DNA from: Phormidesmis priestleyi ULC007
Lineage (GTDB): Bacteria; Cyanobacteriota; Cyanobacteriia; Leptolyngbyales; Leptolyngbyaceae
Length of the DNA stretch: 64,000 nucleotides
Direction of reading: 5' to 3'
Assembly: GCF_001895925.1 (NCBI RefSeq)
Contig: NZ_MPPI01000002.1
Coordinates: 154,095 to 218,094 of the forward strand
Under the pieces are notes generated by a model that was not told the DNA's origin, searched no databases, and worked only from the letters and a program-made list of their open reading frames with translations. How positions within the stretch are numbered: the first letter of the stretch is position 1; the number at the start of each line of letters is the position of its first letter. The translations under genes were made by a program, and so were the position numbers. Shown piece by piece: positions 1-9,731 of this stretch.

Positions 1-96
1 GCTGCGATCGTCCTTTAATTTGTGAAGGGCGATCGTATCAATGGTGAATGGATGGTTTTGTTTAACAGTGCGGAAAGTTTGACGAAAGGTTGGAAT

Positions 97-128
97 TGTT
101 GGGCTTCGCAAGCTCAAGCCAACCTACA
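97..128. repeat. Short palindromic dispersed-repeat relic
   Basis: TTGGGCTT and AAGCCAA flank a short spacer and the sequence ends in AACCTAC. It resembles the TGTTGGG...CCCAACCTAC palindromes that I recall being common in filamentous cyanobacteria. The family assignment is from memory; the imperfect inverted repeat itself is visible. The rest of 1-227 shows no gene. Confidence 0.4.
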
Positions 129-227
129 GAAGATTACTCACCCAGGTTACGATCGCTGTTTTGTCCGACAATCGATGGGAGCAATACGATAAACTAAAAC
201 CTATCATCTATTGTGGGAAGGAAACGT

Positions 228-488
228 ATGGTCACACAAATAATGGTACAGCCCTCCTCTTGGGTCGAAGCCGGAATTCAAATTCAAAAAGTACGTGGAC
301 TCAACCTCTTCAAGTTCACCGACGAACTGCAAACCCATCTCGAAATGCTTCTTGATAAGCATAAAGACAACACGCTTACCGAAGCCGAAGCCGCTGAATT
401 TGCTGGCATTACCGAACTCGATCGCATCTTCACACTGATCAATGCTCGGATGATCGCGGAATCACCAGTAACCACTCGTGACAATTAG
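228..488 (+). CDS. Small helical partner protein of an HNH endonuclease (cassette 1)
   Basis: An 86-residue protein of unknown function. The ATG at 228 is preceded by a purine-rich GGAAGGAA, so I prefer it to the in-frame GTG at 213. The second half is charged and predicted helical, with the segment LTEAEAAEFAGITELDRI. A matching segment (LTPLEQSELDEFERIEHL) occurs in the protein at 6717, which also precedes an HNH gene. The end overlaps the GTG start of the HNH gene at 478 by 11 bases, which implies translational coupling. By position it could be an accessory, targeting or antitoxin-like partner, but nothing in the sequence shows which. Confidence 0.7.
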   Translation: MVTQIMVQPSSWVEAGIQIQKVRGLNLFKFTDELQTHLEMLLDKHKDNTLTEAEAAEFAGITELDRIFTLINARMIAESPVTTRDN

Positions 489-927
489 TCGTGCTACCCG
501 TCAACGTGTCCGCCAACGTGCTAATTCCTTGTGTGAATACTGCCACTCCGCAGAAGAAGGCAGCACCGCGCTATTTACCTTCGACCATATCATTCCTCAG
601 TCTCTCAATGGCAGTGATGATGAAGACAATCTTGCCCTAGCCTGCACCCGCTGCAACGGTCGCCGCTATAACTTCATGGATGGCATAGACCCAGACACCC
701 AAACCACTCAGCGATTATTTAATCCTCGACAAGATCATTGGACAGACCACTTTATCTGGAACCATGATGGTCAAAAGATTATTGGTATCAGTCCAATGGG
801 ACGCGCAACAATTAATCGGCTAGATATAAACGACGATCGCCATGACGATGGCTCTATTCGTCGCGCCCGTCGGCTTTGGATGCGTGGCGGATGGCATCCC
901 CCCAATCATGATCCACAACAACAGTAA
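478..927 (+). CDS. HNH endonuclease (cassette 1)
   Basis: A 149-residue HNH nuclease with a GTG start inside the upstream gene. The motif is seen as Cys19-x2-Cys22, then DHIIPQ at residues 36-41, then NLALAC at 51-56 with Cys59 and Asn60. This is the beta-beta-alpha metal fold with two CxxC knuckles holding a structural zinc. After the domain comes an RLFNPR...W..HF segment and an arginine-rich tail. The same order occurs in the paralogue at 7067. HNH proteins nick or cut DNA; the target is unknown. Loner HNH genes can belong to mobile elements, defence or repair, and no intron or restriction partner is visible here. Confidence 0.88.
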   Translation: MTISRATRQRVRQRANSLCEYCHSAEEGSTALFTFDHIIPQSLNGSDDEDNLALACTRCNGRRYNFMDGIDPDTQTTQRLFNPRQDHWTDHFIWNHDGQKIIGISPMGRATINRLDINDDRHDDGSIRRARRLWMRGGWHPPNHDPQQQ

Positions 928-1273
928 AGCTATCCTCGAACGAAAGAGAGACCGCCGAGTCAGGTAAAAAAAGTCTAATTTACTTAGCCATCGATTGAAT
1001 TGATCACCCTCAAGTGATCGCCTGCAAACGATTAAGTGCAGTGAAACCCGACAGAATCGACCCGATCGCCCTTTTTATTTTCTTCTTTAATAAAATACCC
1101 ATCATCCAGCCGCCCCTCTCAGGAAAAACTGACTTTTATCTGACCTTTTACCGACTGCCAAGTAGAGTAGTCGGCGGCTACATTTAATTCATCGATTAGG
1201 GGTGCGATCTCCAAGTGATGGAATCTTCTCTATATCTGAGTTTGATTGTTGCCCCTTCTCTTAATTAAACGAT
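928..1273. other. Gene-free stretch with a TTTTATC/TTTTACC repeat
   Basis: No convincing ORF in 346 bases. It contains a 27-bp sequence at 1129-1155 that recurs with one mismatch at 3807-3833 (see findings). The T/A-rich stretch before the hydrolase gene at 1274 probably holds its promoter, but I see no clear -35/-10 pair. Confidence 0.5.
1129..1155 (+). repeat. Copy 1 of a 27-bp motif with internal TTTTAYC direct repeats
   Basis: TTTTATC at 1134 and TTTTACC at 1146 are spaced 12 bp apart, each followed by a YGAC/CGAC sequence. The whole 27 bp recurs at 3807-3833. It lies 119 bp upstream of the hydrolase start. Helical-turn spacing suits a regulator that binds direct repeats; that role is inference. 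Confidence 0.5.
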
Positions 1274-2059
1274 ATGCCTAAAGTCACGATCGGCGACCTG
1301 AATATCAACTACAAAATTCAAGGTCAGGGCGATCCACTGTTAATGATTATGGGTCTTAGCTTCAGTTTATTAGATTGGGGCACAGAACTTCCTGAGCTAC
1401 TCTCACAGCGTTACAAAGTGATTCTGTTTGATAATCGGGATGCAGGAGAAACCAGTCGCGCTGCTTCGCAGATACCGCAAGGGTCGCCCCATGCCTATAC
1501 CATTGATCAGATGGCAGATGATGCCGCAGCTTTACTTAATGTATTAGGTGAGTCTAAAGTTAATGTATTGGGTGTCAGCATGGGCGGCATGATTGCCCAG
1601 CACTTTGCCCTCAATCACGCTGACAAATTGCATAAGCTGATTCTCGGCTGCACAATGGCTGGAGGAACCTGTAGTCAATTTGGAGCTTTGAGTAACTTGT
1701 TCAACAGCGATGTCCTGGAGTTACTCTTCACACCAGAGTTTATCCAACAGCATCAACTCGACTTAGAAACATTCTTCCAAACAACTACACCGCTTCACAG
1801 CAAAGGGGATGCTTTAGCACGTCAGTTTTATGCGATGAGCAGTCACGATACTTGTGATCGATTGGGAAAGATCACAGCCCCGACGCTGGTGATCACTGGA
1901 GATCGCGATCGCGTCATTCCTCCACAAAACAGTGATATTCTGACCCAAAAAATCTCTGGTGCTAAACAAGAAACCATCAAAGATGCCGCTCATGCTTTCT
2001 GTTTCAGCCATCCAGATTCTACCGCAACAGCTATCATCAACTTTTTGGAGCATTCGTAA
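1274..2059 (+). CDS. Alpha/beta-hydrolase fold enzyme
   Basis: A 261-residue single-domain cytoplasmic hydrolase. The nucleophile elbow GVSMGG places the catalytic serine at 102. TLVITGDRD near 204-212 supplies the acid (Asp210 or Asp212), and DAAHAF places the catalytic histidine at 240. The N-terminal DNRDAGETS strand-loop is typical of the esterase/haloalkane-dehalogenase-like branch often annotated as 3-oxoadipate enol-lactonase-like. The substrate cannot be assigned. It overlaps the next gene by one base (TAATG), so the two form an operon. The ATG at 1274 lies directly before the conserved first strand. Confidence 0.88.
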   Translation: MPKVTIGDLNINYKIQGQGDPLLMIMGLSFSLLDWGTELPELLSQRYKVILFDNRDAGETSRAASQIPQGSPHAYTIDQMADDAAALLNVLGESKVNVLGVSMGGMIAQHFALNHADKLHKLILGCTMAGGTCSQFGALSNLFNSDVLELLFTPEFIQQHQLDLETFFQTTTPLHSKGDALARQFYAMSSHDTCDRLGKITAPTLVITGDRDRVIPPQNSDILTQKISGAKQETIKDAAHAFCFSHPDSTATAIINFLEHS

Positions 2060-2538
2060 TGACAGACGAAAAAGACCTGATTGAGAAGGCATTTCAGCAA
2101 TATGCAGATGCTTTTCAAGCGCTTGACCCTGCAAAAGTGCTACCTTTTTTCCACTTCCCGGCAATGCTGATTTCACCTGAAAAAGCTGCTGTAATCGGCA
2201 ACCCAATCATCGGTTACTTTGGCTTTAGCAAGGTGATGAAAGATCTGAAGCGGCGTTGTTTTACTCGAAGTGTTGCTGAATCGCTGCATGTTCAGCAACT
2301 CAGCGATAATCTGGCGATCGTGACTGGAGTTGTGATTCGTTTCAAACAGTGCAAGGAAGAACACCCAGAAACGTTTCTTGAGTGCTTCAACTTAAATTAC
2401 ACCATGCGTAAGGTGGATGGTAATTGGAAGATCATCGTGGGTGCGCTGACAGAAACTACTTGCCCTTCCATATCAGATGCCAAAACAAATGCAGCTACCA
2501 ATTCGGGCGCAAGTGGACTTAAAGAGCAGCCAACATAA
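2059..2538 (+). CDS. NTF2-like (SnoaL-type) protein
   Basis: A 159-residue soluble protein. The opening helix (LIEKAFQQYADAFQALDPAKV) and the beta-strand pattern ending in NYTMRKVDGNWKIIVGALTE are characteristic of the NTF2/SnoaL cone fold. Such proteins can be isomerases, cyclases or ligand binders. The last 25 residues are polar and probably disordered. Its start overlaps the hydrolase stop, suggesting co-translation and a shared pathway, but no catalytic residue set is clear enough to name a reaction. Confidence 0.75.
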   Translation: MTDEKDLIEKAFQQYADAFQALDPAKVLPFFHFPAMLISPEKAAVIGNPIIGYFGFSKVMKDLKRRCFTRSVAESLHVQQLSDNLAIVTGVVIRFKQCKEEHPETFLECFNLNYTMRKVDGNWKIIVGALTETTCPSISDAKTNAATNSGASGLKEQPT

Positions 2539-2635
2539 CCTAACCTAGCTGAACAACCAGCCCCAAAAAACCACCCCGCTAAACAATCAGCAAAGTGGCA
2601 ATTCAAACCAACCGGATCACCTCAAACCCATTGAC

Positions 2636-3022
2636 TCAGGCAGCATCCGCTGGCGCTTTTTTCTTGGGTATGCCCATTCGAGCTTTCGACATTGTATGCG
2701 CCACATCGCTCTTGCGGGCACCTCCCGCCATTACATATTCCTCGCTGTCTTTGCCATAAAAGGCAGCCACACCCAGCAGCATCCGCTCACTCAGATCTTT
2801 TAACACCTTCTCAGATTCCTCAACCGCAAGTGCCAGTTGTTCGATCGCAGACAAGGTGCGATTGTAGTCATCCAAATGGGTTTTGTGGGTCGCGATCGCA
2901 GTTTGATAAGCCGCTAAGGTCAGGCTTCTGCCGAGATCGAGGGCAGGATCGATCGACTGTAGACTAATAGCGCGGTGTTGCGCTCGGTCTAATGATTGGG
3001 AATTGCGTTTTTGCCGAGGCAT
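2636..3022 (-). CDS. Conserved hypothetical protein, helical with basic tail
   Basis: A 128-residue protein I do not recognise. Residues 35-95 form long helices (YNRTLSAIEQLALAVEESEK) with heptad character, likely a short coiled coil. The C-terminus is lysine/alanine rich (KKKAPADAA). No signal peptide or membrane segment. It converges on the NTF2-like gene and is followed upstream by the long gene-free region. Coding is supported by composition and a clean ATG. Confidence 0.6.
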   Translation of the reverse strand: MPRQKRNSQSLDRAQHRAISLQSIDPALDLGRSLTLAAYQTAIATHKTHLDDYNRTLSAIEQLALAVEESEKVLKDLSERMLLGVAAFYGKDSEEYVMAGGARKSDVAHTMSKARMGIPKKKAPADAA

Positions 3023-3151
3023 CGGAATGCACCCTTTGCTAATGTTTACAGTTGCACTCTAACCGCCTGGGTTTTGCCAAACCCTCAGAGGATTCAAGGA
3101 TCATTCCCGTGGAGCTTGAGTAAATTCGCATTAAAGTTGGCAATTGTACGG

Positions 3152-3332
3152 AATTAACGTGAATTCGATCAAGCTTTTCGCTATGGTTTCAGATTCGGGC
3201 TGCCCCTAAATTCCCAAAATTGGGGGACTTCAAGCCAAGCTTTCCGGTTCAAAGTCCCCCAATTTTGGGGGATTTAGGGGGCTGAATCGCTGAATAACGC
3301 AGTGAGAAAACTCATCGAACTGATATTGAATT
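3152..3332. mobile_element. Family A palindromic element (MITE-like), degenerate copy
   Basis: The left end AATTAACGTGAATTCGAT and the inverted right end AATTCAATATCAGTTCGAT are related to the AACGTCAGTTCGACG termini of the other copies. The centre (3203-3281) is the shared core: CCCCTAAATTCCC, an inner CCCAAAATTGGG hairpin, GGGACTTCAAGCC, then the mirror half ending GATTTAGGGGG. No transposase is encoded. Confidence 0.7.
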
Positions 3333-3434
3333 AGATCGACTTGGGTGTTAGTTTCACTTAGGAATGCTTTTGTTGAACAAACCTGAGCCTCGGCTTTTCT
3401 CAGGAAGGCTTTGATTACATCGCTTTAAGCGTTA

Positions 3435-3530
3435 GCATTCCCTACCAACGCTTTCATTCTATTGACTTGAGCTTTGGCATTCCCTACCAACGCTTTCATT
3501 TCATTGACTTGAGCTTTGGCATTCCTAGAT
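3435..3530 (+). repeat. 42-bp tandem repeat, about 2.3 copies
   Basis: The sequence GCATTCC recurs at 3435, 3477 and 3519, exactly 42 bp apart. The first two units are nearly identical (...CCTACCAACGCTTTCATT...GACTTGAGCTTTG). The unit is a multiple of three and one frame stays open across it, but there is no start codon for that frame, so I do not call a gene. Confidence 0.85.
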
Positions 3531-3800
3531 GGACGATCGACGCAAGTAATTTCAGCTAGAGGTTGACCTCGTGTTTACCTCAAGGCAAGAGTAGACTCTC
3601 CTGCACGCATCCGGGAACGCCTCCTTCTCCTGCCAAACGTCCCAGAGGGAGCAGGCGCTCGATCGTTTGCAAGGTTTCGTCGATCGTCGTGACTAAGGTG
3701 AACATTGAGGAAGTTGGTGATTATATTCACCGAAGAATTCTCGATTCCAGAAAAATCCCGGAGAAATTTTCAGTAACTTTACAGAGGTCATCTACTTTTC

Positions 3801-3833
3801 TTTTATCTGACTTTTATCCGACCTTTTACCGAC
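3801..3833 (+). repeat. Copy 2 of the TTTTAYC motif, three tandem units
   Basis: TTTTATC at 3801, TTTTATC at 3812 and TTTTACC at 3824 are spaced 11 and 12 bp, each followed by (T/C)GAC-like bases. Positions 3807-3833 match 1129-1155 with one mismatch. It lies about 310 bp before the amidase start. Confidence 0.5.
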
Positions 3834-3868
3834 CGACGAAGAGCAGTTCATCCAGATAGGATTTAACT

Positions 3869-3890
3869 AAACGTGAGTTCGACGAGTTTG
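3869..3890 (+). mobile_element. Solo family A terminus
   Basis: AACGTGAGTTCGACGAGTTT matches the outer end of the family A palindromic elements (compare 30092). No partner terminus is found downstream, so this is a truncated remnant or a one-ended fragment. Confidence 0.55.
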
Positions 3891-4146
3891 TAGCTCTCTC
3901 ACCGCCAATAAGGTGACTGACGTTTATGACTCCATAACTCAGGTCGCGGTCAAAAATTTTCAAGAGATAACCGGATTAGGTAAAGACAGAATTGTAGGAA
4001 CCCAAAGTAAGTTTTTGGGATTACCTGCTTAGTCAGAAAGCCCCTAAACTCCTCGAACAATACTTGCGATCGCAGCTATCAAAACCCACGAAGTCGCGAT
4101 CGCAGATCATCCTTCTATCCCAAGTCATTTTTGAGGAACGATCATC

Positions 4147-4971
4147 ATGCCTTTTACTGCCAAAGTCATTACAGCCGATGAGTGGGATGCCAAACCTCCC
4201 GTTCCAGGAACATTTCCCTTTCCAGTCACTTCCCCTCGTTACATCATTGTTCACCACACAGACAACAAAAACCCTCCCAATGACCCATCACAAAGCACTC
4301 TAGATGGAGCAAAGCAGTTTGCCCGCAACATTCAACACGGGCATTTTCGTAGGGGATGGTCAGATTCTGGACACAACTTTCTCAACACGACCGGAGGCTT
4401 CATTCTTGAAGGAAGACATGGTTCTCTAAATGCCGTTGAGCAGGGACTTTGCATTCGCTCTGCCCACGCTGCCCAAGACGACGGGAAACTAGCTGGCGGC
4501 AATGACTCCCCCGGCATTGAGAATGAGGGAAATTTCATGACGTTTCAAATGGAGCAGAACCAGTGGGATAGCCTGGTAGAGCTATGTGCTTCCCTTTGTA
4601 GCTCTTGTCAAATCAGCCCTGTCAACATCAAAGGACACCGAGACTTTAGCGATACTGATTGTCCGGGTGACTGGCTCTATAATCAGCTTCCCCAACTGCG
4701 AAAAGAGGTGACAGACAAGCTGGGGATGAACTTGAGTCCTGATGAATTAAGCAACGATCGTCCGATCCGATCGCTAAAACTTGGCTCTACAGGCGAAGAT
4801 GTTCTGCAACTGCAAAAAGCTCTGATTGCTAGAGGCTTTAAGCCCGGAGCAGCAGATGGTCTTTTTGGTGAAAACACCAGAGCCGCAGTCATAGCATTTC
4901 AGAGGTCTTTAGGATTTGAAATGGTTGACGGCATTGTCGGCCCGCAAACTCGTGCTGCGTTGAGGCTTTAA
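4147..4971 (+). CDS. N-acetylmuramoyl-L-alanine amidase (PGRP-like) with peptidoglycan-binding domain
   Basis: A 274-residue amidase_2/PGRP-type zinc amidase that would cleave the lactyl-L-alanine bond of peptidoglycan. Residues 31-39 (RYIIVHHTD) give the first zinc histidine. KGHRDF places His164 and TDCPG places Cys172 as the other ligands, the usual H-H-C set. Residues about 208-272 form a PG_binding_1 domain (LKLGSTGEDVLQLQKAL ... DGIVGPQTRAAL). There is no signal peptide at the ATG used here or just upstream, which is odd for a wall enzyme. It could act on recycled muropeptides, or leave by lysis or a non-Sec route. Confidence 0.9.
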   Translation: MPFTAKVITADEWDAKPPVPGTFPFPVTSPRYIIVHHTDNKNPPNDPSQSTLDGAKQFARNIQHGHFRRGWSDSGHNFLNTTGGFILEGRHGSLNAVEQGLCIRSAHAAQDDGKLAGGNDSPGIENEGNFMTFQMEQNQWDSLVELCASLCSSCQISPVNIKGHRDFSDTDCPGDWLYNQLPQLRKEVTDKLGMNLSPDELSNDRPIRSLKLGSTGEDVLQLQKALIARGFKPGAADGLFGENTRAAVIAFQRSLGFEMVDGIVGPQTRAALRL

Positions 4972-5128
4972 TCATCTCAAAGCGGTATGCAATTCTTGCC
5001 CTAATTTCGGTGTGGTTAAAGAATCATCCAACTACACTGCTTTGATGTTGTGCGATCGCCGTTTTATAAAAGCAGCTTGATAATGTTGCCTCCAAACACT
5101 TTTATTTCACCTTTTGGACTTAGAGATT

Positions 5129-6361
5129 ATGAATGGTAACCCTTCTATCAAATCCACGCTGAATTCTAATGAAATTCAAGATCTGATGGATAAAATAAGC
5201 GAACTGATTCCTGTTTCAGATGCTTTAGTCGAGCTGATAAAGCTGCGAGCAGTTTCCACAGGATTTCCATTAGAGCCGAATCATAAGTCAAGATCTTTGC
5301 CAAACTTTAAAGCAAGAGCAACTCACGAGATAACCTATGAGCCTTTGCTTGAATTAGCATCTTCACTAAAATCAAATAGTTTAGAAGAGTACGGAAAACA
5401 GCTAAACGCTCTATGGTCTGACTCTGAAGATGGAAACACCAGACAGACAAGACAATTACTAGACATTAAAAGCAATGTTAATTTAGTCCGTCAAAGACTA
5501 AGTAGCCTTTTTAATCATTCTGTTTTGCCGATTTCTATAAGAGGAAAAGTCGTTCAGATCCTAGTTTCAAAAATTGGTCATCCAGAGTTAATTAAGGAAG
5601 CAGAAAGCAACAGCGAAATCATTAGCCAACTGTTGAACTCAATTAATCAGTTACTGCAAGAAAAAGAAGAAGATTCTAGCTTAACTTTGCCTAAGACAAA
5701 TACTACAAGCTTGTTAGCTTTAGATATCCTAGACAATAGAGCAACGGCTTTAATAGGGGCGATGACTGCGATCGAGACGCGTAGATTGCGGATAGAAGAG
5801 TTAGTTCGTGAAGACCAAAAACGGCACAGAAATACTGTTTTTGGCGTTTCTGTTTACATTGTAATTATTGCAATATGTCTTATTGTCCTACCCCTATTGA
5901 AAACTATTTTTCCAAGTCTTCCAGTTTCAACTATCAACTTAAGTGAAGAGCCACTCACCCAAGCTACGGTTTCTTTTTGGGGAATCCCTACTCCTATTCT
6001 GATTTGGAGCTTTATTGGCAGCTTTGCGGCAATGATACACCGTTTCAACAGTCAGTCTGTTTACTATTTCAACGATGCTATAAAGTGGATGCTAACTCGC
6101 CATGTTCAAGGCATTGTGCTTAGTTCAGCCTTTTATTTAGTTTTGACTTCAGGCTTGTTTTTGATTACAAACGGCGCAGCTTCTCAAGCATCCACTCCTC
6201 AACCGTCCATTAAAGACGAACTCGTTTTAGTTCTCTCATTTCTAATTGGGTTTAGCGATCGCTTTGTGGATAGTGTCTTTAATACCCTTATCGAAAGATA
6301 TACAGGAACAGCAAAGCCTTCTGAGAAAATACCTCTAAAAGAGCCTGGATCTTTAACTTAG
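5129..6361 (+). CDS. Multi-pass membrane protein of unknown function
   Basis: A 410-residue protein. The N-terminal 230 residues are soluble and helical, with a charged segment (EELVREDQKRHRN) just before the membrane. Hydrophobic segments follow: VYIVIIAICLIVLPLL, ILIWSFIGSFAAMI, IVLSSAFYLVLTSGLFLI and VLVLSFLIGFSDRFVDSVF, giving three or four transmembrane helices. The end (FSDRFVDSVFNTLIERYTG) looks like a conserved cytoplasmic motif. Base composition is more AT-rich than its neighbours, consistent with accessory DNA. I prefer the ATG at 5129 to an in-frame TTG at 5114. No function assigned. Confidence 0.75.
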   Translation: MNGNPSIKSTLNSNEIQDLMDKISELIPVSDALVELIKLRAVSTGFPLEPNHKSRSLPNFKARATHEITYEPLLELASSLKSNSLEEYGKQLNALWSDSEDGNTRQTRQLLDIKSNVNLVRQRLSSLFNHSVLPISIRGKVVQILVSKIGHPELIKEAESNSEIISQLLNSINQLLQEKEEDSSLTLPKTNTTSLLALDILDNRATALIGAMTAIETRRLRIEELVREDQKRHRNTVFGVSVYIVIIAICLIVLPLLKTIFPSLPVSTINLSEEPLTQATVSFWGIPTPILIWSFIGSFAAMIHRFNSQSVYYFNDAIKWMLTRHVQGIVLSSAFYLVLTSGLFLITNGAASQASTPQPSIKDELVLVLSFLIGFSDRFVDSVFNTLIERYTGTAKPSEKIPLKEPGSLT

Positions 6362-6716
6362 AATCTGTTAAGAAGGTATTTTGCTGTCTATTTTATGGCA
6401 GGATTCCAGAGGTTACACAGCCCTTAAAATGGAAGCGATCGCTTTTTCATCGGGCGATCAAGCGCCAAATTGCTCGGTTTGTCACCCCCTCGAACGCGGT
6501 CGCCTGCCCTTACAGTGGGTTTCTAGCGATCGGGCTGCTGGGGGGATTTCGCAAAGCGACGTAGAGGTTGAGCCATTCTAGATGCAACGACCTCTAAACC
6601 ATACTGAAGCCTCTAACTTCTGCAAGTGCATGGCAGTGAGCGCGCAGTATTTACTATTCGCAGCCTGGATTCCGCCCTGCTAAAATACCCACAGAGTGCT
6701 TACACAAAACTCTGCC
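6362..6716. other. 355-base gap containing the left direct repeat of HNH cassette 2
   Basis: No credible gene. Positions 6392-6442 resemble 7525-7575 (see the next entries). CTAAAATA around 6680 is a plausible -10-like sequence for the cassette 2 operon. Confidence 0.4.
6392..6442 (+). repeat. Left imperfect direct repeat flanking HNH cassette 2
   Basis: ATGGCAGGATTCCAGAG...ACACAGC...TTAAAATG..AGCGATCGC aligns with 7525-7575, about four fifths of positions identical with two single-base gaps. Both copies include an A/T-rich hexamer followed by GCGATCGC. Confidence 0.55.
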
Positions 6717-7070
6717 ATGCCCCAAATCACCCTAGATCTTCCAGACGATCTCCTGCAACAGATCAACCAAAGCGGTAGCCGAGATCGCCTAATCGAACTT
6801 CTCACCTTGAGCCTTCAGCAACCTGCCGTGCCTGCCGCCATTTACCGCTACATTTTCGACTTCATCATTAGCAATCCCACCGCCCAACAAATCGCCAACT
6901 TTTGCCCTACTGCTGCTATGCGAGAGCGGCTATCGATTTTGCTCGATCGCGGCCAAGCTAACCAACTTACCCCCCTAGAACAATCCGAACTCGACGAATT
7001 TGAACGCATTGAACATCTCATCATCATGCTGAAGTCCGGCAATTTTCACGCCTTCCCTCCCGTCGGATGA
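6717..7070 (+). CDS. Partner protein of HNH endonuclease (cassette 2)
   Basis: A 117-residue protein. The N-terminus (MPQITLDLPDDLLQQINQ...RDRLIELLTLSLQ) resembles the opening of antitoxin/UPF0175-like or ribbon-helix-helix small proteins. Residues 60-115 carry a helical segment ending ILLDRGQANQLTPLEQSEL, related to the tail of the protein at 228. Its stop overlaps the ATG of the HNH gene in ATGA, so translation is coupled. The ATG at 6717 is chosen over an in-frame GTG at 6696. Function unknown; an accessory or immunity partner is a guess from position. Confidence 0.75.
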   Translation: MPQITLDLPDDLLQQINQSGSRDRLIELLTLSLQQPAVPAAIYRYIFDFIISNPTAQQIANFCPTAAMRERLSILLDRGQANQLTPLEQSELDEFERIEHLIIMLKSGNFHAFPPVG

Positions 7071-7477
7071 GCAAGACCCCTATTCCTGCCGCTATCAGGC
7101 GGTTAGTCGAAGAACGGGCAGGGTATCGCTGCGAACTTTGCCTCGTCCCGATCGACATTACGTTCTTTCCCCACGAGGTTGACCACATCATTGCCGAAAA
7201 ACATCAAGGTAAGACCGAACCAGAAAATTTAGCCCTCGTCTGCTGGCGATGCAATCGACATAAAGGCAGTGATCTTGGCTCGTTCGACCCCGTAACCCGT
7301 CGGTTTTGCTTCTTATTCAATCCGCGCACTCAAATTTGGTCAGAACACTTCACGCTGCAAAATCACGAAATTATCGGCACTACACCAGAAGGACGCACAA
7401 CCGCCTCTCTGCTCCAACTCAATACAAACCAACGCAAAACAGAAAGACAACGGTTTATGCCATCGCCTGAAACGTAA
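7067..7477 (+). CDS. HNH endonuclease (cassette 2)
   Basis: A 136-residue HNH nuclease paralogous to the gene at 478. Cys22-x2-Cys25, VDHIIAEKHQG at 38-48, NLALVCWRCN at 54-63 (Cys59, Cys62, Asn63), then FLFNPR..IW..HF, aligning with the same stretch of the first copy. Shared architecture and a shared type of upstream partner mark a two-gene family present twice within 7 kb. No signal peptide. DNA is the expected substrate; specificity and role are unknown. Confidence 0.9.
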   Translation: MSKTPIPAAIRRLVEERAGYRCELCLVPIDITFFPHEVDHIIAEKHQGKTEPENLALVCWRCNRHKGSDLGSFDPVTRRFCFLFNPRTQIWSEHFTLQNHEIIGTTPEGRTTASLLQLNTNQRKTERQRFMPSPET

Positions 7478-7524
7478 AGAATGCGATCGGACTGCACCTA
7501 TCTCAAATAAGTCTCTCTAGGTCG

Positions 7525-7575
7525 TTTCATGGCATGATTTCAGAGTCACACCGCTTTTAGAATGAGAGCGATCGC
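7525..7575 (+). repeat. Right imperfect direct repeat, overlapping the HIT-gene promoter region
   Basis: CATGGCATGATTTCAGAG...ACACCGC...TTAGAATG..AGCGATCGC matches 6392-6442. TAGAAT, about 30 bases before the HIT start, is a good -10 candidate, so the left copy may be a duplicated promoter fragment. Confidence 0.55.
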
Positions 7576-7590
7576 ACCTAGCAGTCTGCC

Positions 7591-7941
7591 ATGAGTGAAA
7601 CCAACGACACGATTTTCGGCAAAATCATCCGCAAAGAGATTCCTGCCGACATTGTTTATGAAGACAATCTCGCCCTCGCCTTTCGCGATGTGAATCCGCA
7701 AGCGCCCGTGCATATTTTAGTGATTCCTAAACAAGCGATCGCCAAACTCTCTAACGCAGACTCGCAAGATCACGCGCTGATGGGGCACCTACTTTTAACC
7801 GCCAAGCGAGTCGCCGAGCAAGTCGGGCTTACCAACGGCTATCGAGTTGTGATCAACACAGGCGACGATAGCGGACAAACCGTTGATCATCTGCATCTGC
7901 ACATCCTTGGTGGTCGCCCCCTGACTTGGCCACCCGGTTAA
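7591..7941 (+). CDS. HIT (histidine triad) family nucleotide hydrolase, HinT-like
   Basis: 116 residues, normal for the HinT branch. The diagnostic HLHLHILGG gives His100, His102 and His104, with the first histidine in PVHILVIPK near 41. HinT proteins hydrolyse purine nucleoside phosphoramidates and acyl-adenylates in the cytoplasm. Residue 1 is the ATG at 7591, matching the family N-terminus (TIFGKIIRKEIPADIVYED). recR follows 49 bases later in the same direction. Confidence 0.95.
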   Translation: MSETNDTIFGKIIRKEIPADIVYEDNLALAFRDVNPQAPVHILVIPKQAIAKLSNADSQDHALMGHLLLTAKRVAEQVGLTNGYRVVINTGDDSGQTVDHLHLHILGGRPLTWPPG

Positions 7942-7981
7942 GCAAACACCCGCCCCGATGCGCTAGGATCTGGACAGAATC

Positions 7982-7986
7982 GGAGG
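7982..7986 (+). promoter_or_regulatory. Strong Shine-Dalgarno GGAGG before a non-canonical recR start
   Basis: GGAGG is followed after 4 bases by ATC (7991) and after 7 bases by ACG (7994). No ATG, GTG or TTG exists in the recR frame between the in-frame TAG at 7964 and the GTG at 8111. The site therefore points to initiation at ATC or ACG. Confidence 0.65.
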
Positions 7987-7990
7987 AAAG

Positions 7991-8602
7991 ATCACGGTTT
8001 ACACACGCCCCCTCGCTCGTTTAATTGAGCACCTTCAACATCTCCCTGGTGTTGGCCCTAAAACAGCCCAACGGCTTGCGCTCCATATTCTCAAGCGCCC
8101 TGAAGAAGAGGTGAAGGCACTCGCTCAGGCATTGGTAGAGGCAAAGCTGCAAGTGGGCTTCTGTTCGGTTTGCTTTCATTTGTCGGCTGAACCAGTTTGT
8201 GACATCTGCCGCGCTCCCAATCGCGATAGCAGCACGATTTGCGTAGTTGCCGATTCTAGAGACGTGATCGCGTTAGAAAAAACTCGTGAATATCGCGGGA
8301 AATATCACGTTTTGGGTGGATTGATCTCTCCGATCGACGGCATCGGCCCTGATCAGCTAAATATTCACCCGCTACAGCGCCGCGTCAGTCAACAGAAGAT
8401 TGACGAGGTGATATTGGCGATCAGCCCCAGTGTTGAAGGCGAGACGACGACTCTGTTTGTGGGTCACTTGCTCAAACCGTTCACACGGGTGACTCGGATT
8501 GCGTTTGGTCTGCCGATGGGCGGCGACTTAGAATATGCCGATGAGTTGACGCTGGCACGCGCCCTAGAGGGTAGACGAGATTTAGAGTTTGGCAGTCGCT
8601 AA
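7991..8602 (+). CDS. recR: Recombination protein RecR, apparent ATC/ACG start
   Basis: About 203 residues, the normal RecR length. In order: a helix-hairpin-helix [13 protein letters not shown] at 18-30, a zinc finger Cys58-x2-Cys61 and Cys70-x2-Cys73, then a Toprim domain ([15 protein letters not shown]). RecR acts with RecO and RecF to load RecA at gaps. The first canonical codon in frame is GTG at 8111, which would remove 40 residues including the essential hairpin, so that start is wrong. The frame opens after TAG at 7964 and offers only ATC 7991 or ACG 7994 next to GGAGG. Either a true rare start codon or a single-base difference from ATG. Confidence 0.9.
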
Positions 8603-8650
8603 ACCTCAGAGTTTGCCATACTAAAACCATTCCCAATTTTGATTTGCCTG

Positions 8651-9034
8651 ATGTTTGGTATCTTTCAACAAAGCAGTTTGCGGATTGAAGTTGCGGCCTC
8701 TGAAGCCCTGCTTCGTCAGAGTCTCGCCAACCCTGCCCAGTTTTCTAAGTGGCTTTGGTTTGAGCGATTCTCACCTGGCTTGCCCACAACGTTGCATCCC
8801 GGATTGACGTTTATGAGTTGGGCAGGTGCGATCGCGATTCAACATCAGGTCGAGATTGCAGAACCTAATCGGGTGCGGTTTTTGCTCAGTCAAGGCATTG
8901 ATGGCTTTCACGAATGGGCGTGGGGTGATGGTTGGGTGCAGTCGCGCATCGAAGGCATTTCAGTTTTGCCGATTAATTTAGGCCAAACGATCAGTCTTTT
9001 GAGTCTAAAGCAATTTTTAGCCACCACCTCATAA
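8651..9034 (+). CDS. Conserved cyanobacterial hypothetical protein (possible SRPBCC fold)
   Basis: A 127-residue soluble protein. Alternating strands with WEW-like aromatic motifs (FHEWAWGDGWVQSRIEGIS) and the opening FQQSSLRIEVAASEALLRQSL suggest a START/SRPBCC-like lipid- or ligand-binding sandwich. I recognise it only as a conserved cyanobacterial hypothetical. I use the ATG at 8651 rather than the TTG at 8639. It lies 48 bases after recR in the same direction. Confidence 0.65.
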   Translation: MFGIFQQSSLRIEVAASEALLRQSLANPAQFSKWLWFERFSPGLPTTLHPGLTFMSWAGAIAIQHQVEIAEPNRVRFLLSQGIDGFHEWAWGDGWVQSRIEGISVLPINLGQTISLLSLKQFLATTS

Positions 9035-9170
9035 AGACTTTCTGGCAATCTGTGCCTAAAGACCTAGGACGGTTTTTGAAGTGGTTAAGGGCGATCGTCT
9101 TCCTGTAGATGGATGATGCACAAACGCTTAACCTGTTTCGCTCATCGGTGTAGTTTTGTTGAATTTGTCA

Positions 9171-9731
9171 ATGCTGAAGTATTCTGTTAGGCGAATGGGC
9201 TGGTTAGGAATGATGGTCGCCCTCACCGTTTCTCAATCAGGACTGGCGATCGGCGCAGAGCCTAGCTTGAATGAAACCACACCCACTCCTACCCAATCTC
9301 TCGATTCTCCTCAAACTCCTCAAACCCAGCCTGTCACTCAGCCTTTGCGGCTAGAAATTCGTCTCAGCAAACGTCAGGTCACGCTTTATCAAGGAGATGT
9401 CAAAGTCAAAACCTACCCGATCGCAGTGGGTCGCCCTGGGTGGGAAACACCGACAGGCAACTTTCGAGTCAGGCAAAAAGTCAGAAACCCAGTCTGGGTG
9501 CATCCCTTCACAGGTGAGAAAGTAGCGGGCAAAGACCCTGAAAACCCCTTAGGTGGCTATTGGCTGGGTTTTTGGACAGACGGCAAAAACTCGATCGGGC
9601 TTCACGGTACGCCCACACCTCTCTCAATTGGAAAAGCTGCATCTCATGGCTGTGTTCGCATGCATGTCAAAGATGCGGCAGAACTTTTTGAAAAGATCAA
9701 CGTGGGAACAGTCGTCAAAGTGGTGAAATGA
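9171..9731 (+). CDS. L,D-transpeptidase (YkuD family), secreted
   Basis: 186 residues. A signal peptide occupies roughly 1-29 (arginine-rich start, hydrophobic core, LAIGA). A Pro/Thr/Gln linker follows to residue 58, then the YkuD domain. The signature is complete: HGT at 145-147, ISHGC-type SHGCVRM with His159, Cys161 and Arg163. Such enzymes make 3-3 cross-links in periplasmic peptidoglycan or attach proteins to it. The ATG at 9171 is chosen because it precedes the signal peptide; an in-frame TTG at 9156 adds five residues. Confidence 0.93.
   Translation: MLKYSVRRMGWLGMMVALTVSQSGLAIGAEPSLNETTPTPTQSLDSPQTPQTQPVTQPLRLEIRLSKRQVTLYQGDVKVKTYPIAVGRPGWETPTGNFRVRQKVRNPVWVHPFTGEKVAGKDPENPLGGYWLGFWTDGKNSIGLHGTPTPLSIGKAASHGCVRMHVKDAAELFEKINVGTVVKVVK

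Follow-up and report, generated by a model that had tools for sequence, protein, structure and literature searches.

The analysed window, a 64,000-nucleotide stretch of the cyanobacterium Phormidesmis priestleyi ULC007 (contig NZ_MPPI01000002.1, positions 154,095 to 218,094), carries near its beginning two copies of a two-gene arrangement in which a small protein, here called the partner, is encoded directly ahead of an HNH nuclease. In pair 1, the open reading frame (ORF) of partner 1 (228-488, plus strand, 86 amino acids), a putative antitoxin with an alternative in-frame GTG start at 213, matches the partner profile A3 (E=2.5e-18) and overlaps by 11 nt the gene of HNH 1 (478-927, plus strand, 149 amino acids, GTG start), a putative nuclease toxin recognised by the Pfam HNH model (E=1.6e-14). 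Pair 2 consists of the ORF of partner 2 (6717-7070, plus strand, 117 amino acids; A3 match E=7.7e-17), a putative antitoxin with a ribbon-helix-helix (RHH)-like N-terminus, and of HNH 2 (7067-7477, plus strand, 136 amino acids; Pfam HNH E=3.3e-13), likewise a putative nuclease toxin, the two genes overlapping in the sequence ATGA. The original prediction had proposed both pairs with these overlaps, and ORF calls bear it out. It had also held that the likeness of the nucleases extends past the catalytic core, which agrees with an identity of 37% between HNH 1 and HNH 2 over 120 amino acids (E=2e-23), and that the tails of the partners align. The latter could not be proven from the two sequences alone, since BLASTP of partner 1 against partner 2 yields no alignment; comparison of the profiles A9 (partner-1-type) and A7 (partner-2-type) establishes the homology over 50 columns (96.2% probability, E=2.7e-9), and the alignment falls on the C-terminal ~50 residues of the partners, where the tail match had been placed.

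To what extent the two genes depend on each other was assessed in a 146-genome draw of the cyanobacterial phylum, supplemented with plasmid, phage and viral collections. The nuclease family comprises about 100 members in the 146 genomes (E<1e-30), with ordinary HNH proteins separating at about 1e-11, and its spread is patchy, 59 of the 146 genomes having a match at E<=1e-10. When the flanks of the nuclease loci were fetched and their 5' regions scanned with a partner profile, a match was found at 93 of the 95 nucleases that are open over model position <=7 to >=109, the profile having been built from these same partners. At one of the two loci lacking a match (L079) the partner is cut by the contig end, and at the other (L067/L163) it is displaced by an insertion sequence; here (G040:C1:2277526-2279133) a transposase gene separates the partner from the HNH gene, both of which are intact. 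The scan was repeated as a jackknife, with the partner profile trained on sequences less than 40% identical to the tested one and with downstream and far-upstream regions as controls. Of 101 open nucleases, 95 at E<1e-3 and 99 at E<0.05 had a partner directly upstream, whereas downstream of the nuclease the corresponding counts were 0 and 4. The two remaining misses are L067 and L075, the latter a nuclease without its own first positions, and the single far-upstream hit is the genuine L067 partner shifted by the insertion sequence. At L051 the partner and the nuclease start are both broken. Measured at 101 loci, the end of the partner falls within -28 to +26 nt of the start of the HNH domain, with four exceptions. 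Family members of partner 1 likewise stand 5' of HNH genes. Among the roughly 100 nuclease relatives in the 146 genomes, no intact nuclease clearly without a partner was found.

The reverse does not hold. A search of these genomes with the partner domain, whose counts are lower bounds among the matches listed, shows roughly two in three of the partners listed to be paired. A set of 60 fetched partner loci, nearly all without a full adjoining nuclease, contains at least 54 intact partners, at least 41 of them with no trace of a nuclease and at least 13 followed by a truncated one. In three genomes (L150, L151 and L164 in G066, G022 and G097) a solo partner lies directly 5' of the same rsmH-like gene, which we take to be rsmH, and the ratio of nonsynonymous to synonymous substitution rates (dN/dS) of these partners, about 0.05-0.08, indicates purifying selection, hinting at a function retained without the nuclease. 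Some other solo partners (L154, L157, L161, L198) are followed by ORFs like other toxin-antitoxin genes (DUF433, DUF2281 plus PIN, HicB-HicA). Apparently, then, a nuclease does not persist unless it has its partner, but a partner can outlive its nuclease. The suggestion that the pair forms an obligate two-component system is supported, with an obligation that is one-sided; HNH genes mostly lacking a partner, or partners occurring mostly alone, were looked for in the 146 genomes and neither was found.

The two genes also evolve together. In a mirror-tree comparison the HNH and partner distances correlate with r=0.75 (n=79 pairs), against a highest value of 0.11 in 2000 permutations, and comparison with a congener gives dN/dS values of about 0.09 (partner 2) and about 0.13 (HNH 2). 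Pair 2 occupies the same place in that congener, whereas in the 21 other, more distant relatives examined the HIT gene occurs without the pair; the location is intergenic and variably occupied. Relatives of HNH 1 are present on 36 plasmid records, nearly all cyanobacterial and 8 of them conjugative, with pairs on the conjugative plasmid pNsp_a (Nostoc) and on pSYLA (Synechocystis PCC 6714); by coordinate comparison, 15 of 15 plasmid-borne relatives of partner 2 have an HNH match beside them. A pair also occurs on one IMG/VR contig (L202:1230-1890), antisense among phage-like genes and near ORFs resembling a DUF433-DUF5615 toxin-antitoxin pair, and the pair may exist outside cyanobacteria. Among 50,697 phage records no full-length nuclease relative was found, only the HNH core.

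Across 102 relatives, residues C19, C22, H37, N51, C56, C59, N60, P83, W88, H91 and F92 (HNH 1 numbering) are conserved, the catalytic histidine in 101 of 102 and both CxxC pairs together with N51 in all 102. Matches in the PDB are HNH nucleases (Cas9, McrA, Gme HNH), and the nearest defence profiles are those of Septu PtuB (E=8e-9 for HNH 1, 1e-9 for HNH 2 and 6e-11 for a plasmid relative). No PtuA-like ORF was seen in window positions 1-9500. Assignment to the IscB/Cas9-type nucleases was considered and rejected, as the proteins have only 136 and 149 amino acids and the match to the IscB model is confined to its HNH part.

What the partners have in common are about 55 C-terminal residues forming two helices around the motif LT..E..EL, a helical hairpin that in partner 1 occupies about residues 28-75. 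Ahead of this hairpin the N-termini are interchangeable, being RHH-like, Phd-like, of other, unassigned kinds, or, as in partner 1, without any recognisable domain. The AlphaFold 2 model of one RHH-like partner (predicted local distance difference test, pLDDT, 89.5) begins with an extended stretch, which is followed by helices at 10-22 and 27-40 and by the hairpin at 62-76/82-111; partner 2 joins the RHH-type group by profile (108 columns, E=2.5e-14). A natural in-frame pair, modelled as one chain with the stop read through, gave a pLDDT of 87 and a predicted template modelling score of 0.73, both being figures for the whole chain and not for the interface. Searching the PDB by sequence with N-termini of the Phd-like and the RHH-like type brought up no match that was both significant and biologically meaningful, and no family corresponding to the partner was found in Pfam, NCBIfam, PADLOC or PHROGs.

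The two copies that the original prediction described are both real, but too few for this genome, which holds at least five pairs. Further pairs lie at C39:84.9 kb, at C48:32.0 kb and at C83:3.5 kb, the last with a nuclease broken by an in-frame stop, and an orphan partner (C10:23.2 kb) and a nuclease fragment (C66:17.7 kb) occur in addition. Across the sampled genomes there are up to 10 HNH-family matches per genome, many carrying stop codons. Four divergent pairs (L109, L110, L111, L121) show a weak match to the partner hairpin and an unusual N-terminus, for which a HicB-like assignment was dropped, as it had no database support. In the window, the genes flanking the pairs read as housekeeping genes. 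A hydrolase-like gene 3' of pair 1 (1274-2056) occurs in 3 of 20 relatives searched, its own genome included, and the window end with pair 1 may vary in gene content.

Each pair is probably a type II toxin-antitoxin-like module composed of an HNH nuclease toxin and a modular antitoxin. As in type II operons, the putative antitoxin gene comes first and overlaps or adjoins that of the toxin, and, as with type II modules, the toxin is apparently not kept alone while the antitoxin can be. The analysis showed the order and overlap of the genes, a pairing that is near-obligate on one side, divergence of the two genes in step, purifying selection on each of them, carriage by plasmids, antitoxin N-termini of several interchangeable kinds and conservation of the catalytic and zinc residues. 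Toxicity, direct neutralisation, repression or autoregulation, trigger and target are inferred. The upstream gene would be translated first to give the antitoxin, whose C-terminal hairpin would bind and silence the HNH nuclease that the second, overlapping gene encodes, and in many relatives a putative N-terminal DNA-binding domain (RHH, perhaps Phd-like) would repress the operon. Loss of the antitoxin, through loss of the plasmid or locus, through stress or possibly through phage attack, would leave the HNH enzyme free to cut nucleic acid, either DNA or, as some PtuAB systems are reported to do, tRNA, and growth would stop.

Several observations weigh against this assignment. HNH domains are common in proteins that are not toxins. 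One nuclease (L073, G103:C1) is open although its partner stops about 20 codons early and has lost the corresponding C-terminal residues, which is the one clear exception to intact pairing. As to repression, partner 1 has no recognisable DNA-binding domain, and an inverted repeat was sought ahead of partner 2 with none found, only distant ones lying ahead of partner 1. The Phd-like N-terminal type matches Pfam RelB-like (E=0.0098) and Phd (E=0.11), both under the Pfam cut-off. The RHH assignment rests on the topology of the AlphaFold 2 model and on individually insignificant matches, CopG being matched by sequence at E=1.3 and the RHH proteins AmrZ, VapB, AtaR, CopG, Arc and MatP by Foldseek; since all Foldseek E-values exceed 1, it is the topology and the recurrence of such folds that suggest an RHH domain rather than significance.

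The pairs might more specifically be small anti-phage abortive-infection modules, in which the HNH nuclease is kept inactive by the partner until infection leads to its release. The nearest defence profiles, those of Septu PtuB, align along most of the nuclease, and the pair on the viral contig adjoins the DUF433-DUF5615-like ORFs, which both point in this direction. However, no PtuA-like ATPase or other sensor adjoins the pairs, the neighbours in the window read as housekeeping genes and full-length relatives are lacking from the phage records, so that abortive infection falls somewhat short of an even chance. The likelihoods given to it and to the toxin-antitoxin assignment overlap, because abortive infection is a role that a toxin-antitoxin module could play.

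Near-obligate pairing and co-divergence would also be expected of a two-subunit enzyme, and many characterised HNH domains nick DNA, which would fit a housekeeping or recombination nickase whose partner is a required activating subunit rather than an inhibitor. Such a subunit would not outlast its enzyme, yet intact solo partners are numerous and three of them are kept under purifying selection ahead of the rsmH-like gene; moreover, the patchy spread, the disabled nucleases beside intact partners and the carriage on plasmids fit a toxin better, which makes an activating role unlikely. Of the options in the original prediction, that of a self-targeted nickase found no specific support. Since the nuclease apparently does not survive alone but the partner does, the toxin-antitoxin option is favoured. 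That the nuclease is a homing or mobile element standing on its own, with the small ORF carried along, is highly improbable: homing endonucleases typically contain HNH domains, and the congener has pair 2 while other relatives lack it beside the HIT gene, but the sampled pairs inspected adjoin varied genes rather than lying in introns or inteins, and the partner is under purifying selection, co-diverges with the nuclease and is kept without it.

The family is widespread and apparently unnamed. No paper describing the HNH-partner pair was found in the open-licence literature, and Makarova 2009 and the Synechocystis 6803 toxin-antitoxin survey hold no mention of HNH. We tentatively suggest that the pairs represent a large unclassified toxin-antitoxin or abortive-infection family, in which a stand-alone HNH enzyme, possibly a tRNase as in some PtuAB systems, is restrained by an antitoxin hairpin of a new kind that has come to be linked to at least two kinds of N-terminal domain, and in which conserved solo partners might serve as chromosomal anti-addiction factors against plasmid copies. 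If the toxin-antitoxin assignment is true, cyanobacterial genomes and plasmids hold several copies of a toxin-antitoxin family annotated as "HNH endonuclease" and "hypothetical protein", and HNH counts in cyanobacteria need re-reading. The type II toxins would then gain an HNH nuclease, and the antitoxins a new domain that stands behind interchangeable N-termini; the many solo partners alongside plasmid-borne pairs would make anti-addiction directly testable.

Compared with type II modules of the VapBC, ParDE, AtaRT and Phd-Doc type, the pairs share the antitoxin gene placed first and overlapping that of the toxin, a modular antitoxin with a putative DNA-binding N-terminus in several types, carriage on plasmids and chromosomes, many paralogues and orphan antitoxins. 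They differ in that the toxin is an HNH zinc-finger nuclease, that the antitoxin hairpin belongs to no Pfam, NCBIfam, PADLOC or PHROG family and that some antitoxins have no recognisable DNA-binding domain. The hairpin resembles that of UPF0291 YnzC from Bacillus in sequence (E=7.5e-4 over ~35 residues, a likeness that may be generic) and in fold (root-mean-square deviation 1.0 A over 46 columns, Foldseek E 4.1). YnzC, however, is a small stand-alone protein, and we know of no pairing of it with a nuclease. With IscB/Cas9, McrA, Gme HNH and Cap5 the nucleases share the catalytic HNH fold and the CxxC zinc pairs, but the whole protein is here one HNH domain with a family-specific C-terminus, without a RuvC or effector domain. 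The likeness to PtuB, the effector of Septu and of retrons, takes in the HNH domain and some of the C-terminal extension; PtuAB degrades DNA or tRNA-Tyr (PMC11555353, PMC13096335), whereas the partner described here is a non-ATPase of 70-140 amino acids encoded upstream, with no PtuA ATPase. Finally, M. smegmatis offers a precedent in MSMEG_1275, an HNH DNase encoded on the chromosome whose DNA cleavage kills the cell that makes it (PMC9416677), its reported control being exerted in trans by an ArsR regulator and not by a small overlapping partner gene.
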